A stretch of 64,000 nucleotides of DNA from Candidatus Saccharimonadota bacterium (GTDB lineage Bacteria; Patescibacteriota; Saccharimonadia; Saccharimonadales; UBA4665), in assembly GCA_028286345.1 (NCBI GenBank), contig JAQBRT010000001.1, forward strand, positions 372,001 to 436,000. The letters are read 5' to 3'. The notes under the pieces are model-generated. The model saw nothing but the letters and a program-made list of their open reading frames with translations, had not been told where the DNA came from and searched no databases. Shown piece by piece: positions 45,184 through 57,027 of this stretch. Numbering within the stretch: position 1 is the first letter of the stretch; each line of letters begins with the position of its first letter. The position numbers were made by a program, and so were the translations under genes.

Positions 45184-45267
45184 GCGGATGTGGTGAAATG
45201 GTATACACGCTAGTTTCAGGTACTAGTGCCGCAAGGCGTGGAGGTTCAAGTCCTCTCATCCGCACCA
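45184..45267 (+). tRNA. tRNA-Leu(CAG)
   Basis: 84 bases with encoded CCA. Acceptor stem GCGGATG/CATCCGC, anticodon stem CTAGT/ACTAG with loop TTCAGGT, a long variable arm (GCCGCAAGGC), and T arm GGAGG-TTCAAGT-CCTCT. Its 3' end is the attachment site of the element that follows, and stays intact after integration. The serine recombinase frame runs antisense into it. Confidence 0.97.
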
Positions 45268-46829
45268 GAAGACATTTCAATAGCCTTTACGAGGCTTGCA
45301 AAGGGTTCTTTCCAGATTGGGAAGACCCTTTTTTCATTGTCTACGGTTAGGTTCAAGAACAAAATGCGTGCAACACGGTCTTTCTCAACTGCTGAACCTG
45401 CTTTCATCTTGTCAGGTGCTAATTTTACGAGGTTCAAGAACTGCTCTTTGGTTAGTTTGATTTTACTTGGATTTGCTATTTTTTCTTTGAGCTTGCCTAT
45501 ATCCTCATCTAGCTCTTGGGTATCAGTAGCAAGCTGTTCAATTTTGTTCTCGTTGATTGCGTATGCTGGCGAGCTACGGTTGATTTTACCAAGACCAAGG
45601 GATAAATCATCAAGCTCTTTTTTCTTGTGAGCATACGCACCTCTTTTACTGGCAATATCTTCTTTAATCTTGATAATCTTCTCGTCTGTGAAGCTGTCTA
45701 TACGCTTGCTGTAACGCTCATACGCTTCGTCTGAGAGTTGCAGTTTCTCTAATAGCTCATAGATTGCATCAAAGATATAGAACGCTCTAATCGACTTAAC
45801 GGTGCGAGTACAATTTTTGTTATCGCAACGATATGAAAGAACACGAAACTTGCTTCCGCCAGGCTTGTTTTTACCAGCTTGCATCCACCTAACATCATTG
45901 CATACACCACAGAAAACCATGTGAGTAAGTGGCTTGAATTCTAATCTTTTCTTGGAGCTGGTATCACGCTTCCTAGTATAAGCTAGAGCTTGGACCTGAT
46001 TATAAATATCTTGGTCAATCATTGGCTCAAAATCCAGTTGAATAGTGCTTAGCTCAATGGATTGTTCTGTTTGTTCAAGTATCCCGAAATAAAAAGGATC
46101 ACGGAACATCTGACCTACGCTCTTTTCGGTAGGCACTATCTTCTTGCTAAATTTATTCTTCCTAGAAACTTTTGTCATACGGTGGTAACCCTTTTCAAGC
46201 AAATACTCCAGCACTGCCATGTTAGTAGCACCCCTAGCCCTCATATACCAAGCCTCTTGAACATCATCAAACCATTCGTTAGGTCGGTAACGTCCATCTG
46301 GTTCTCGTTCATAACCCCATTTAGGCTGACCCCCTGATTTACCGTCTTCCCAGTTACCAGATACCCCTCTACGAACTTTTTGAGATAAGTCGTCGGAAAA
46401 GTGTTTAGAGATAGAGAACATGATTCCGAGTGTGAGTTTTCCCGATGGGTCGTTAGTAAAGTGATGAGTCGGGAATTGCAGGTCTTTTATCTTGCCCTCA
46501 TCGAGCATGTTAATGATTTGCCCACCATCTAACATATTGCGTGATAGTCTATCTGGTGCGTATGAGAGTATAGCGTCATACTTGCCACCACTCTCAATTT
46601 CCTCAAGTATGTCGTAGAACTTTTTTCTTACCTTTTTGTCGGCTTTTTTGGCAGACCCATTTTCTTCAATGGTGTCTACTATGTTTAAGCCACCTAATTT
46701 AGCATGACGTTTGCAGTATTTAATTTGGTCGGGAACAGAACGAACCTGACTACCCTCATCAGTCGTAGACTTACGAGCATACAGCACATAACGCAATTTG
46801 GTGCGGTCAATTTCTTCGTCAAGTATCAT
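45246..46829 (-). CDS. Large serine recombinase (site-specific integrase)
   Basis: 527 residues. N-terminal resolvase domain with the catalytic Ser in 'VLYARKSTTDEGSQVRSVPDQI' and 'YAPDRLSRNMLDGG'; 'Recombinase' domain around 170-270 ('KWGYEREPDGRYRPNEWFDDV'); zinc-ribbon Cys pattern 'FCGVCND...YRCDNKNC' around 310-345; coiled coil around 390-450. The gene points at the tRNA, and its last six codons plus stop (GADERT) are antisense to the tRNA 3' end. The natural C-terminus is thus lost on integration; see 49503-49637. Clear family; att function inferred. Confidence 0.93.
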   Translation of the reverse strand: MILDEEIDRTKLRYVLYARKSTTDEGSQVRSVPDQIKYCKRHAKLGGLNIVDTIEENGSAKKADKKVRKKFYDILEEIESGGKYDAILSYAPDRLSRNMLDGGQIINMLDEGKIKDLQFPTHHFTNDPSGKLTLGIMFSISKHFSDDLSQKVRRGVSGNWEDGKSGGQPKWGYEREPDGRYRPNEWFDDVQEAWYMRARGATNMAVLEYLLEKGYHRMTKVSRKNKFSKKIVPTEKSVGQMFRDPFYFGILEQTEQSIELSTIQLDFEPMIDQDIYNQVQALAYTRKRDTSSKKRLEFKPLTHMVFCGVCNDVRWMQAGKNKPGGSKFRVLSYRCDNKNCTRTVKSIRAFYIFDAIYELLEKLQLSDEAYERYSKRIDSFTDEKIIKIKEDIASKRGAYAHKKKELDDLSLGLGKINRSSPAYAINENKIEQLATDTQELDEDIGKLKEKIANPSKIKLTKEQFLNLVKLAPDKMKAGSAVEKDRVARILFLNLTVDNEKRVFPIWKEPFASLVKAIEMSSGADERT

Positions 46830-49646: not shown

Positions 49647-49670
49647 AGATCTCCGCAAGGAGGTCTTTTT
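49647..49670 (+). terminator. Intrinsic terminator, probably the original tRNA-Leu terminator
   Basis: Stem AGATCTCC/GGAGGTCT with a GCAA tetraloop and TTTTT. It lies 9 bases past the right GCACCA, the place expected for the terminator of tRNA-Leu before the element came in. Confidence 0.75.
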
Positions 49671-51174
49671 AGTAGCCAGAGAAGTGGTCTGTTTTGACTT
49701 TGCTGCCGGTTACGCCGAGGCAGTGAAGATGGTGTTTGGTGCCGTCGACCATGTTGTTTGGCCCAGAGATGTAAAAGGTGCGCTCAGCATAATCGGGGAC
49801 AAGCTTGGAGATAAGGTCGGCAGTAACTTTTGCAGTAACAACCCCAGGTGCTTGGTAGGACAGGTTGGTGACGACCGGTATGGCTTTGACCCCTACTGGC
49901 AAAGCTTCGCGGATTTGCTGGGTGTAGGCAAATTCCTGGGGGTCGCTGACGACGTACAGCAAGGTGATGTCGGACTGGATGTTTTTGTCAGTGATGTACT
50001 TAAGCATGCTACGGAATGGCGTAATGCCAATACCGCCAGCAATGAAAGCGAGTTTTTGGGTTTCGTTGCCCGAGAGGGTAAAATTGCCGGCCAGCTGGCT
50101 GGCGTAAATGCTGTCCCCGGGTTTAAGGTCAAAGAAGGCTGCCTTAAAGGTACTGGCAGGCTCGTAGTATTTGAGGCCAAGGTGGACATCTGGCTCAGTC
50201 GGCGACGAAGCGATAGTAAAGGTACGGCGATTACCGCGGCTGTCGTAGGGAATGTTAGCCAGTGTCCACTCCATGTACTGTCCAGGCTGAAAAGTAAACG
50301 GCCTCTCGGGCTGGAATATGTAATTGTAGACATGGTCAGATATCTTCTGGACCTCTTTAAGCTGCATGCGCATCCTGAACTTTGGCGAAACCGCATAGGC
50401 AAAGAGATTGCCCAGCAGCAAGGCAATTTCTGGGTGGATAATGAATGGGCCAACCTCCCAGGCAGTAACGTACAGCATAGCTACCAGGGCGCCAAAAACC
50501 ATTTGGAGGTTACGGCGCGGTGGCATGGTAGCTGGTTCGGTTAGCATGATGGTGCCCAGGAAGATCAGTGGCGAAGCCAGCAGGGCATGCTTCATGTTTA
50601 TGACAAGGGGCTGATGGCCATGGATGAACAGCGCGAGCTGCAGGGCAATACTGACTGCTGCGAATGTTGCCAGCAGCGGCATACGGCGGATTTTCCAGAC
50701 GACAGCCACTCCCAGTACAAGTGCGAATGGCCAGAGCACTGAACTACCAACCCACCAGGTGACTGCCTGCAGGCCGCTGATGCTAAGCAGGGCAGCCGCC
50801 AAGGCCGCCGGGTTGAAGATATGCTTGCCGTTCCAAGCGAGTAGAAATTTAGACGCACTGGAAACGGCGCCAGCCAGTGCCAAGCTAAACCCTGCTCCCA
50901 GCGAATGGGCCGGACTGACGATTAAAAATAGGATCAGTGCCGTGATGAGTGAAGATTCCATATTGGTAGGGACACGGAAAATACGGCCAAACAATCGGTC
51001 AGTGACATACGCGGAGGTGAGTATCAAACTAAGCGACACGATCAGCGATGTTGGGCTAGAAGAAAGTCGGCCCAGGAATGAAAATACCAATGCTAGCCCG
51101 ACGAGTATGCTCAGGGAATAGACTACAAGGCGGTACATGGTTACGCTATTTAGAAATCTTTCGATGATATTCAT
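49669..51174 (-). CDS. RnfD/NqrB-like membrane domain fused to ferredoxin-NADP reductase-like domain
   Basis: 501 residues. The first 255 or so form about eight to ten membrane helices with the RnfD/NqrB hallmarks 'GKHIFNPAALAAAL' and 'GTIMLTEPATMPPRRN', whose Thr stands where FMN is covalently attached in that family. From about 265 a soluble flavin reductase module follows: 'FTFQPGQYMEW', FAD-binding 'RRTFTIASSP', NAD(P)-binding 'LAFIAGGIGITPFRSML' and a 'ISGPNNMVD' end. This would move electrons from NAD(P)H through FAD and FMN across the membrane. It starts 4 bases into the end of the apbE frame, so the three genes form an operon. Confidence 0.88.
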   Translation of the reverse strand: MNIIERFLNSVTMYRLVVYSLSILVGLALVFSFLGRLSSSPTSLIVSLSLILTSAYVTDRLFGRIFRVPTNMESSLITALILFLIVSPAHSLGAGFSLALAGAVSSASKFLLAWNGKHIFNPAALAAALLSISGLQAVTWWVGSSVLWPFALVLGVAVVWKIRRMPLLATFAAVSIALQLALFIHGHQPLVINMKHALLASPLIFLGTIMLTEPATMPPRRNLQMVFGALVAMLYVTAWEVGPFIIHPEIALLLGNLFAYAVSPKFRMRMQLKEVQKISDHVYNYIFQPERPFTFQPGQYMEWTLANIPYDSRGNRRTFTIASSPTEPDVHLGLKYYEPASTFKAAFFDLKPGDSIYASQLAGNFTLSGNETQKLAFIAGGIGITPFRSMLKYITDKNIQSDITLLYVVSDPQEFAYTQQIREALPVGVKAIPVVTNLSYQAPGVVTAKVTADLISKLVPDYAERTFYISGPNNMVDGTKHHLHCLGVTGSKVKTDHFSGY

Positions 51175-52055
51175 GCCTTTTCCTCAAAAAAGCTAGCTGC
51201 TAAATCTTTTGACCGCTGGATACTCATATCTTTATACAGCACTGCAAATGAGAAGTTGAAGCGTTGCGAAAGGCTGTCTGGGCTGGTGAAAAATAAAGCT
51301 GTCGCCAGGCCATCAGCGAGCATGGTGGTGTCGGCGATTACCCAGGTGGCAATTACTTCGCTTGGTGACTGCAGGTCTATGGGGTCAATAATGTGGTGAA
51401 ACTTGCCCCATTTCCGCCTGCTCCCGGCTGAAGCGCAGAGGCTGCGGTTGTGTAACTGCACAATACCAACGGCTTCGGTGGTATCGACTGGGTTTTCTAG
51501 GCCGACTTCCAGAGCTGTTGTATCTGATGTCCGGTGTAGGATGTCGCCGCCTGCATTAATGGTGTAAGAATGAATATCAGCCTGGTCTATAAGGTCGCCT
51601 ACAATGTCGATCAAGTAGCCTTTACCGGCAGCTCCAAAGTCGAGTAAAGCTGGCCGCTTCACTTCTATCGAGTGCTTGTCGAACGACAGTGCATCCTCCC
51701 ATAGTGGCGGATGGTGCAAGGTTTTTTCTTTAAATGAATAGTTCGCATCATAGCCGGCATCAGACAGGGCTTGGCCTATGAGCGGGGTGACTTTACCCTG
51801 GGTTGCTTCGTACAATTGCTTATAAAACGTCAGCATGTCAAACCCATCCGGAGGCAGCTCGTATGTGCCCGGCGTGCCAGACATATAGGTCACAAGTGAA
51901 TCGGAACGGAAGCGGGAGTAAGCCTTGTCGAACGCTTGTATACGCAGGTAGATTTTTTGTATGAGCTCAAACCAGGCATCGTCTTTGATGGCATCTTTGA
52001 TGGTTATATCCCAGCGTGTTCCAATTGCTTCAAAGCTCGAAGTGCGTCCTGTCAT
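51171..52055 (-). CDS. apbE: FAD:protein FMN transferase ApbE
   Basis: 294 residues. ApbE attaches FMN to Thr or Ser of target proteins, using FAD. Family segments: 'DKAYSRFRSDSLVTYMS', 'LDFGAAGKGYLIDIVGDLI', 'YTINAGGDILHRT' and 'VIADTTMLADGLATALFF'. No signal peptide is obvious, so it may act in the cytoplasm or at the membrane. It stands between its two likely targets: the FMN-binding protein upstream and the RnfD-like protein downstream. Confidence 0.95.
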   Translation of the reverse strand: MTGRTSSFEAIGTRWDITIKDAIKDDAWFELIQKIYLRIQAFDKAYSRFRSDSLVTYMSGTPGTYELPPDGFDMLTFYKQLYEATQGKVTPLIGQALSDAGYDANYSFKEKTLHHPPLWEDALSFDKHSIEVKRPALLDFGAAGKGYLIDIVGDLIDQADIHSYTINAGGDILHRTSDTTALEVGLENPVDTTEAVGIVQLHNRSLCASAGSRRKWGKFHHIIDPIDLQSPSEVIATWVIADTTMLADGLATALFFTSPDSLSQRFNFSFAVLYKDMSIQRSKDLAASFFEEKA

Positions 52056-52062
52056 GGGTGTT

Positions 52063-52581
52063 TTAGGCTTTGGCTTTAGATGAAATCTGGCTCAAAGCGT
52101 CCACGAAGCCCTGCGTCGTGTCGGAGGCACCGGCGATCACGCCCAACTGGAGGCCGCTAATCTTTTTGCCGACGACATAACTTTTATAAACTGACGCAAA
52201 ATCTTGTTGGTAACTGGCCGATACATTGTCGCCTTCGCTGTTCTGGATTGAAGCACTGGTTATGACGCCGTCTTTGAGCTCTACGTTGACCTGGATCGAC
52301 TCGTTACCATGAGGCACGTTGTAACTGCTGCTGCCCGAGTAGTTGCCGTCTGTGTAGCCGCTGGAGGCTGTTGCGGCTGTGCTTGGGGTAGCTGGTGCCG
52401 GAGTTGATTGAGTTGCCGGAGTTGCTTGAGTTGGTTGGCTGGTGGGGATAGTAGTTGCCGCGCTCACCGTGTTTTTTGCCTTAAAGTGATCAGCAAATAC
52501 AATACTGCCTGCAATAACTACTATCGATAGCAGGGTGGCTGCTAATTTTCGTTTGGAGTGTTGTTCGTATGTATCTAGCAT
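52063..52581 (-). CDS. Exported FMN-binding domain protein
   Basis: 172 residues. N-terminal membrane helix (about 13-31, LAATLLSIVVIAGSIVFADHF), a Pro/Thr/Ala-rich linker (about 43-70), then an FMN-bind domain (about 75-170): 'DGNYSGSSSYNVPHGNESIQVNVELKDGVITSASI' and the flavin-attachment region 'IAGASDTTQGFVDAL', in which the GAS-D-T motif takes the place of the usual S/T-G-A-T/S. FMN would be linked on the outer face of the membrane. First gene of the flavin electron-transfer operon, with TATAAT about 10 bases before the ATG. Confidence 0.88.
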   Translation of the reverse strand: MLDTYEQHSKRKLAATLLSIVVIAGSIVFADHFKAKNTVSAATTIPTSQPTQATPATQSTPAPATPSTAATASSGYTDGNYSGSSSYNVPHGNESIQVNVELKDGVITSASIQNSEGDNVSASYQQDFASVYKSYVVGKKISGLQLGVIAGASDTTQGFVDALSQISSKAKA

Positions 52582-55389: not shown

Positions 55390-57027
55390 ATGAGTAAAGT
55401 TGCGCAGTACCTCCAAGAGCATTTGGTCGGCGAAGTCATGACCAGCGTTGACGCCCGCCGTTACTTCGCTACGGATAGCAGTATCTTTTCGCTGCCACCA
55501 GCCCTGGTTGTCTATCCGCGCAGTGAAAACGATGTCCGCAAAACCGCCCGTTTTACCTGGCAGCTAGCTGAGCGTGGCCGAGTCATCCCCATGACCTCCC
55601 GCGGTTCCGGTACCGACCAAACTGGCGCCGCCCTAGGGACGGGCATTGTAATTGTTTTTCCGGCGCACATGCACCGTATTTTGGAACTCGACACCAAGGC
55701 TAACACCGTAACTGTAGAGCCAGGTATTAACTACGGCAAACTTCAGCAAACCCTGCATACCCACCACCGTTTCTTGCCGCCTTTCCCAGCCTCAATGGAA
55801 TATTCAACCGTTGGCGGGGCTGTGGCCAACAACGCCAGCGGCGAAAAATCCGTCAAATATGGCGATACCCGCAACTTTGTTACATCTTTACGGGTAGTGC
55901 TGGCTAACGGCGAAGTTATTGAGACTAGCCGCCTCAGCAAGCGTGACCTTAATAAAAAGCTCGGCCTGGCCAGCTTTGAAGGCGAAATCTACCGCCAACT
56001 GGACACTCTCCTAGAAGAAAACAAGCCACTTGTCAGCAAAACCCTGCGCAACGTTACGCGCAATAACGCCGGCTACCACTTAATAGATGTACTGCGTGGT
56101 GATGGCTCATTTGACCTCACGCCGCTGTTCTTAGGAAGCCAAGGCACCCTAGGCATTATTACCGAAATCAGCCTCGACACCGAAGCCTACAACCCAAGCA
56201 CCACGCTACTACTGGCCAGCTTTGACAGCCTTGAGCAGACCCAGGCTGCCGTTTTGGCTCTGCGTGCTTTGCCAGATGTGCCAAGCGCCATTGAGCTGGT
56301 CGACGGCCACTTACTCGACCTGGTCCAAGCCCGTAACCCCAACTTGCTGCGAGAAGTTATGCCCCAGCCGTTCCCAACCGCGGTGCTGCTAGTTGAGTTT
56401 GACAATGCCAACGAGCGCAGCCTTAAACGGGCCGTCCGGAGAGCTAATAAAATCTTTGAGCAGTATGCCTCTAGCCTTCATACAGAAACCGACCCAGAAC
56501 GCCAAAACAACTTTTGGAAAATCCGCCAAGCTTCCAGCACTTTGTTGGCCAACAATGAAGGTCATGACCGTGCCGTACCGCTGATTGATGATGCCACCAT
56601 TCCACCCGACCAGATCAAAAACTACATGCAAGCCGTCTACGCCTTACTAGAAAAAAATAACCTCCCGATTGCCGTTTGGGGCCATGCCGGTGACGGCACC
56701 TTCCGTGTCCAGCCCGCCCTCAACTTGAGTTTGGTCGGCGACCGCCAGACTGCTTTCCGCCTAATGGATGAATACTACAAATTAGTTATTAGCCTCGGCG
56801 GCACAGTTAGCGGCGAACGCAATGATGGCCGCCTCCGCGCACCATACGCCGAACTCCAATACGGCCCAGAAGTAACCGCGCTTTTCCGCAAGGTCAAACA
56901 GATATTTGACCCCTACGGCACCCTCAATCCTGGCGTCAAAGTCGGTGTTTCGCTAGACGACATCCGCGCCCTCGTCCGCCCCGATTACTCGCTAGATCAT
57001 CTCTACGACCATTTACCCCGTAGCTAA
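55390..57027 (+). CDS. FAD-linked oxidase, GlcD/D-lactate dehydrogenase type
   Basis: 545 residues. N-terminal FAD-binding domain (PCMH type, about 35-215): 'VIPMTSRGSGTDQTGAALGTGIVIVF', 'VEPGINYGKLQQTL', 'GGAVANNASGEKSVKYGDTRNFV'. C-terminal FAD-oxidase domain with 'WGHAGDGTFRVQPALNL' and an end 'IFDPYGTLNPGVKVG'. Oxidises D-lactate, glycolate or a like 2-hydroxy acid, passing electrons to a quinone, cytochrome or other carrier. No Fe-S domain is fused. Substrate cannot be read. A possible electron source for the nearby flavin chain, but this is only a suggestion. Confidence 0.92.
   Translation: MSKVAQYLQEHLVGEVMTSVDARRYFATDSSIFSLPPALVVYPRSENDVRKTARFTWQLAERGRVIPMTSRGSGTDQTGAALGTGIVIVFPAHMHRILELDTKANTVTVEPGINYGKLQQTLHTHHRFLPPFPASMEYSTVGGAVANNASGEKSVKYGDTRNFVTSLRVVLANGEVIETSRLSKRDLNKKLGLASFEGEIYRQLDTLLEENKPLVSKTLRNVTRNNAGYHLIDVLRGDGSFDLTPLFLGSQGTLGIITEISLDTEAYNPSTTLLLASFDSLEQTQAAVLALRALPDVPSAIELVDGHLLDLVQARNPNLLREVMPQPFPTAVLLVEFDNANERSLKRAVRRANKIFEQYASSLHTETDPERQNNFWKIRQASSTLLANNEGHDRAVPLIDDATIPPDQIKNYMQAVYALLEKNNLPIAVWGHAGDGTFRVQPALNLSLVGDRQTAFRLMDEYYKLVISLGGTVSGERNDGRLRAPYAELQYGPEVTALFRKVKQIFDPYGTLNPGVKVGVSLDDIRALVRPDYSLDHLYDHLPRS

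Follow-up and report, generated by a model that had tools for sequence, protein, structure and literature searches.

Ultra-small bacteria are considered poor in redox metabolism of their own. The stretch of DNA analysed here (64,000 nucleotides of a Candidatus Saccharimonadota contig, called the window below) carries a three-gene operon on the minus strand, at 49669-52581, which raises the question of what kind of flavin-based electron-transfer system it encodes, how its outer flavin is attached and where its electrons go. The operon very probably (at roughly four chances in five) represents a two-subunit flavin electron-transfer system of the NQR/RNF-like type together with the enzyme for its maturation, and its probable function is the transfer of electrons from NAD(P)H through the membrane to a flavin-carrying protein on the outside. 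It adds to a described but experimentally little-studied class of electron-transfer systems in ultra-small bacteria.

Gene identities and the class of the operon

The genes are arranged in the order FMN-type protein, apbE and fusion gene, with a gap of 7 nt between the first two and a 4-nt ATGA overlap at the junction of apbE and the fusion gene. The features are the following:

52063..52581, minus strand: FMN_bind-like (RnfG/NqrC-type) protein, 172 aa, family membership via operon homologues
51171..52055, minus strand: ApbE FAD:protein FMN transferase, 294 aa, without signal peptide (PF02424)
49669..51174, minus strand: fusion protein, 501 aa, with an NqrB/RnfD-like membrane domain and a FAD/NAD(P)H flavin-reductase domain
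50521..50541, minus strand: codons of T-E-P-A-T-M-P (fusion residues 212-218), aligned with TDPV of NqrB/RnfD

The three gene identities and the tight operon proposed in a first-pass annotation of this DNA were confirmed by the location of the genes, by the domain matches and by the survey of operon conservation that it had suggested. After profile iteration, the order FMN gene-apbE-fusion was found to be kept in about 33 of 39 Patescibacteria loci from several candidate phyla, a recurrence which excludes chance for the operon. The exceptions are mostly situated near contig ends, and in L064 no apbE is present between the other two genes. The fusion was found in 23 out of 60 sampled relatives (two cut by contig ends counted) and in 59 out of 380 sampled Patescibacteria (rows covering the whole model). 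It was also found in 15 additional contigs, whose labels mostly name candidate phyla (Gracili-, Uhr-, Woese-, Blackburn-, Wildermuth- and Saccharibacteria). On one Wildermuthbacteria contig (L044:5542-5991) a cupredoxin-like protein with a membrane anchor stands before the fusion in place of the FMN protein and apbE, possibly as an alternative outer electron carrier. The same three genes are also localized on a Mesorhizobium plasmid and on NZ_CP081947.1 (L096, H2), deposited as a Pseudomonas plasmid. The latter carries argS and lysA beside the operon, and since this gene content looks actinobacterial, the deposited label is probably wrong and the record has the appearance of a piece of actinobacterial chromosome.

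The C-terminal half of the fusion protein (residues 265-501) is a cytosolic FAD/NAD(P)H reductase domain matching NAD_binding_1 (PF00175; E=2e-10, 41.8 bits), in agreement with the earlier assumption that NAD(P)H enters via an FNR-type FAD domain. Many flavin-reductase relatives of this half are present in NCBIfam and PDB, and the FNR residues RxxFTxxS, GGxGxTP and a C-terminal FxGY are invariant in the fusions. The structure model (mean pLDDT 86) matched flavin reductase and NqrF structures with its C-terminal half, which dominates the Foldseek results, so these speak for that half only. For the membrane half (residues 1-262), the match to NQR2_RnfD_RnfE (PF03116; E=5.7e-6, 26.3 bits) lies 1.4 bits under the 27.7-bit cut-off, and its profile matched NqrB and RnfD chains.

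An FMN on the Thr of TEPATMP in the membrane half had also been proposed. T212 and T216 are indeed conserved in 34 of 36 fusions, but the profile sets TEPATMP on ATDPVSA of NqrB and ATDPVTSP of RnfD, and by this alignment with TDPV the Thr is not a flavin site. In NqrB, the Thr that carries FMN (Thr236 in Vibrio cholerae) is situated inside a stretch of 73 residues (207-279) that faces only about 25 profile positions of the fusion membrane half. A [ST]G[AS][ST] acceptor motif was found in the membrane half of none of 40 fusions. Because the acceptor stretch is mostly without counterpart, because the motif is missing and because Huang 2024 (PMC11334425) reports no covalent flavin site in the membrane subunit of the NQR/RNF-like class, a flavin in the membrane half, if present, would be non-covalent.

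The 'NQR/RNF-like system' was described by Meheust 2021 (PMC8238504) and modelled by Huang 2024 (PMC11334425), and it was reported mainly from the candidate phyla radiation (CPR) and Actinobacteria. It shares with the window two subunits plus ApbE, an NqrB/RnfD N-terminal half fused to a PF00175 C-terminal half, and a membrane subunit without covalent FMN site. The operon is of this kind described in 2021, and its compact fused form is not new; the view that this form is unusual had to be abandoned, as it already appears in Meheust 2021 and in the 59 Patescibacteria mentioned above. The window differs from the described system in belonging to a divergent group (group B, below) with a Ser-type acceptor, an FMN subunit that Pfam does not detect and an ApbE of the long kind. 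RNF and Na+-NQR have in common with it the RnfD/NqrB-like membrane domain, the RnfG/NqrC-like FMN subunit and the NqrF-like FAD/NAD domain, whereas the window lacks the RnfA/E or NqrD/E core, Fe-S subunits in the operon and the covalent membrane FMN site. A check for rnf and nqr genes elsewhere in the genome, which was searched one protein family at a time, gave no PF02508 match to this core, while control matches were obtained in four genomes. As far as can be seen, the window system is not an ion pump.

The FMN subunit and two groups of predicted acceptor sites

The FMN proteins carry a hydrophobic N-terminal anchor behind a short basic tail. In the 172-aa protein of the window, the anchor (about residues 13-31) is followed by an Ala/Thr/Pro-rich linker and an FMN_bind-like domain, with A-G-A-S (Ser153) as the predicted FMN acceptor site. 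Searched alone, this protein showed no FMN_bind match in Pfam or NCBIfam; Med13_C and the YidC N-terminus were returned as chance matches and rejected. Its assignment is based on the homologues. Out of 21 proteins from the FMN-gene position of the operon set, 16 matched PF04205 (FMN_bind), a joint profile of the operon-position proteins matched FMN-binding domains in PDB (8p2a at E=3e-15; RnfG weakly), and the window protein aligns with the operon homologues throughout, including DGxYxG...GAS.T. Its structure model reached a pLDDT of 70 only, and Foldseek gave nothing at E<=0.001 for it; the FMN_bind-type structure 3o6u ranked at the top (5e-3), with lipoyltransferase and IscU/SufU folds close to it and 8p2a, NqrC and RnfG lower.

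Compared with the FMN_bind motif [DN]xx[ST]G[AS]Tx[ST], the window site GVIAGASDT deviates at -6, at -3 and at the acceptor, and the operons fall into two groups. In group A, whose members match PF04205, the site is the canonical [ST]GA[ST], in almost all cases with Thr, and the ApbE is short (about 245 aa). In group B (window, L031, L034, L051, L058, L070, L071 and L096), the site reads [SA]G[AS]S, Ser being the predicted acceptor, Asp/Asn is missing at -6, and the ApbE is long (about 295 aa). In the tree of the fusions, a branch supported at 96/95 separates group B from the rest. Since group A extends to the Mesorhizobium copy and group B to the actinobacterium-like contig, the split either predates these phyla or moved between them. 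The use of Ser and the missing Asp at -6 suggest that flavinylation in group B may be weak or may take place on the Thr at +2 instead. Of the externally attached FMN claimed previously, the FMN-carrying outer subunit is upheld by the homologues, but the AGAS site is a Ser-type variant.

The location of this subunit outside the membrane is supported mainly by a lipobox (LAGTVAGC) in the FMN protein of the actinobacterium-like contig, by the homology to RnfG/NqrC and by the linker; the charge flanking the anchor is by itself not decisive for topology.

An ApbE without export signal

The ApbE of the window matched PF02424 (E=4e-37) and contains the active-site residues D139, K145, G146, GGD, H221, D248 and T252. 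The metal-binding and catalytic residues, whose loss would have refuted the first-pass annotation, are intact in 36 out of 36 ApbEs, and the enzyme is predicted to attach the outer FMN, taking it from FAD.

An export signal was found in none of the 52 ApbEs examined, comprising 34 operon ApbEs, 16 other ApbEs of relatives and those of two outgroup operons. Leaders were judged by a hydrophobicity scan (the most hydrophobic 17-residue stretch near the N-terminus) and not by SignalP. All 34 operon ApbEs start more or less directly at the enzyme domain, and their N-terminal hydrophobicity is clearly lower than that of the FMN proteins. A leader missed through a wrong start codon was rejected, as in 27 of the 34 the reading frame can be extended upstream by 14 codons at most until a stop is reached (by 12 for the window ApbE), leaving no room in most of them. 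The recurrence in relatives and outgroups also disproves that the missing leader is peculiar to the window.

Most of the 16 other leaderless ApbEs belong to two other flavinylation-type clusters. A second cluster in the relatives (L079-L088, L091, L092, L094) encodes an FNR-type protein (about 345-400 aa), a leaderless ApbE (about 300-330 aa) and, in addition, a membrane protein of 4-6 helices with the motif SWPWYxxRA.G; judged by the ApbE count, it is not present in the genome of the window, which has one ApbE. In a third arrangement (L089, L090, L093), an FMN-type protein and a leaderless ApbE face, in convergent orientation, a multi-helix protein (about 430 aa) that may be MsrQ/ferric-reductase-like. 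A second FMN_bind-like domain was not found in the genome; two weak extra matches span only the anchor and linker of the model.

Sec-exported proteins are usually held to need a cofactor supply on the outside (PMC9973259), and known leaderless ApbEs act on cytosolic targets (PMC12052999). The cytosolic ApbE of Klebsiella pneumoniae, like that of the window, has no signal peptide, but its target is a soluble cytosolic fumarate reductase (PMC12052999), while the target in the window is membrane-anchored and predicted to be outside. TatC is absent from this genome. With a leaderless ApbE, an anchored or lipoprotein target and no TatC, the simplest reading is FMN attachment in the cytosol followed by Sec export; attachment would most likely be cytosolic, before or during export, as the enzyme lacks a leader. 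Extended to the whole class found in Patescibacteria, on the Mesorhizobium plasmid and on the actinobacterium-like contig, the proposal that a leaderless ApbE flavinylates in the cytosol and that the unfolded, FMN-bearing chain passes through Sec is tentative, with the odds somewhat against it. If true, it would contradict the accepted rule that flavinylated proteins exported by Sec require an exported ApbE and a FAD exporter. Locating the flavin attachment would point either to Sec export of a cofactor-bearing chain or to an unseen export route for ApbE.

The flavin-based extracellular electron transfer (EET) of the Listeria type (Ndh2, DmkA/B, EetA/B, FmnA/B, PplA) resembles the window in the ApbE-type flavinylation of an exported FMN protein and in the NADH donor. 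In contrast to it, the window operon has no Ndh2-quinone route, its reductase is fused to the NqrB/RnfD domain, and no FAD exporter would be needed since its ApbE is not exported. Genes for Ndh2, DMK synthesis, EetA/B and PplA were found neither in the operon nor in the scanned neighbours.

Both halves of RibF, the flavokinase (PF01687) and the FAD synthetase (PF06574), were also not found in the genome, which encodes several flavoproteins; since neither half was detected, FAD may be imported. The resulting maturation paradox, a leaderless transferase for an outside target in a genome with no Tat and no recognisable FAD synthase, is a useful new point of this analysis. The consulted parts of Meheust 2021 (PMC8238504) and Huang 2024 (PMC11334425) contain no discussion of leaderless ApbE.

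Proposed electron route, possible acceptor and genome context

Based on fold and motifs, NAD(P)H would reduce the FAD of the cytosolic reductase domain. By homology and according to the published model, electrons would then go singly via a non-covalent flavin in the NqrB/RnfD-like membrane domain. The conserved site indicates as the next carrier an FMN predicted to be covalent on the membrane-anchored outer subunit, and this FMN would finally reduce an extracytosolic acceptor. The published model (PMC8238504, PMC11334425) is likewise a one-way transfer from NAD(P)H to the outside FMN. The reverse flow, in which the outer FMN takes electrons from an external donor and NAD(P)+ is reduced inside as in the RnfG-RnfD-RnfC output branch, appears quite improbable. 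The step from RnfG/NqrC to RnfD/NqrB is inward in RNF and NQR (PMC12174285), and FNR-type domains are reversible, but no low-potential outside donor system was seen, and for NAD+ reduction either a donor with a potential under about -320 mV or a supply of energy would be needed, in a genome without pump subunits.

For the outward route, the first-pass annotation had pointed to the lack of an obvious respiratory chain, with NADH possibly being reoxidised on an outside acceptor or on the host. This lack holds inside the window only. A cyoABCDE-type heme-copper oxidase operon (subunits II, I, III, IV and CyoE-like; subunit I identified by Pfam, the others by reading) is located elsewhere in the genome, at about 675.5-680.7 kb of G000:C2. 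COX1 is present in 44 of 60 relatives, namely in 19 of 23 with the fusion and 25 of 37 without it, which gives no sign of replacement, and replacement of oxygen respiration by the operon was rejected on these grounds. A respiratory-type NADH sink is permitted by the topology, which is compatible with NAD(P)H being oxidised and electrons flowing outward; the fusion is present without COX1 in a few relatives that are fairly complete (G035, G053), and a flavin-based reduction of iron by CPR has been put forward (PMC12153355). It is nevertheless unlikely in view of the oxidase data, and no recurrent terminal reductase gene adjoins the operon. The operon would act alongside the oxidase of the cell and not in place of a respiratory chain.

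The gene neighbourhoods in relatives point to another role, an assimilatory or protective one, in which a small, two-component-switched reductase would serve ferric iron or oxidised envelope parts. The Mesorhizobium copy adjoins a member of the VIT family and a sensor kinase/response regulator, 10-11 loci, almost all from group A, have a two-component system next to the operon, and a Fur-like regulator with glutaredoxin (by reading) is present in three loci, two of them near-identical. Six such clusters with VIT1 are reported by Meheust 2021 (PMC8238504). None of these neighbours adjoins the window operon, however, and co-location is indirect, so that this role is given just short of even odds. 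Because VIT iron transporters and redox regulators adjoin the operon in relatives, ferric iron or a general envelope redox partner would be the leading guess for the acceptor.

The divergent gene beside the window operon encodes a secreted glycoside-hydrolase-like protein (by reading). Next after it, at 55390-57027 on the plus strand, a FAD-linked oxidase of the D-lactate dehydrogenase/GlcD type is encoded (PF01565 and PF02913), which may supply the quinol oxidase with electrons. A serine-recombinase-like gene (527 aa) at 45246-46829 on the minus strand, about 3 kb away from the operon, possibly marks an integrated element. A stand-alone paralogue of the reductase half of the fusion is localized at G000:C2:522893-523549 (L075:3882-4823, minus strand), near a thioredoxin reductase and a glutaredoxin-like gene, and similar copies are present in many relatives.
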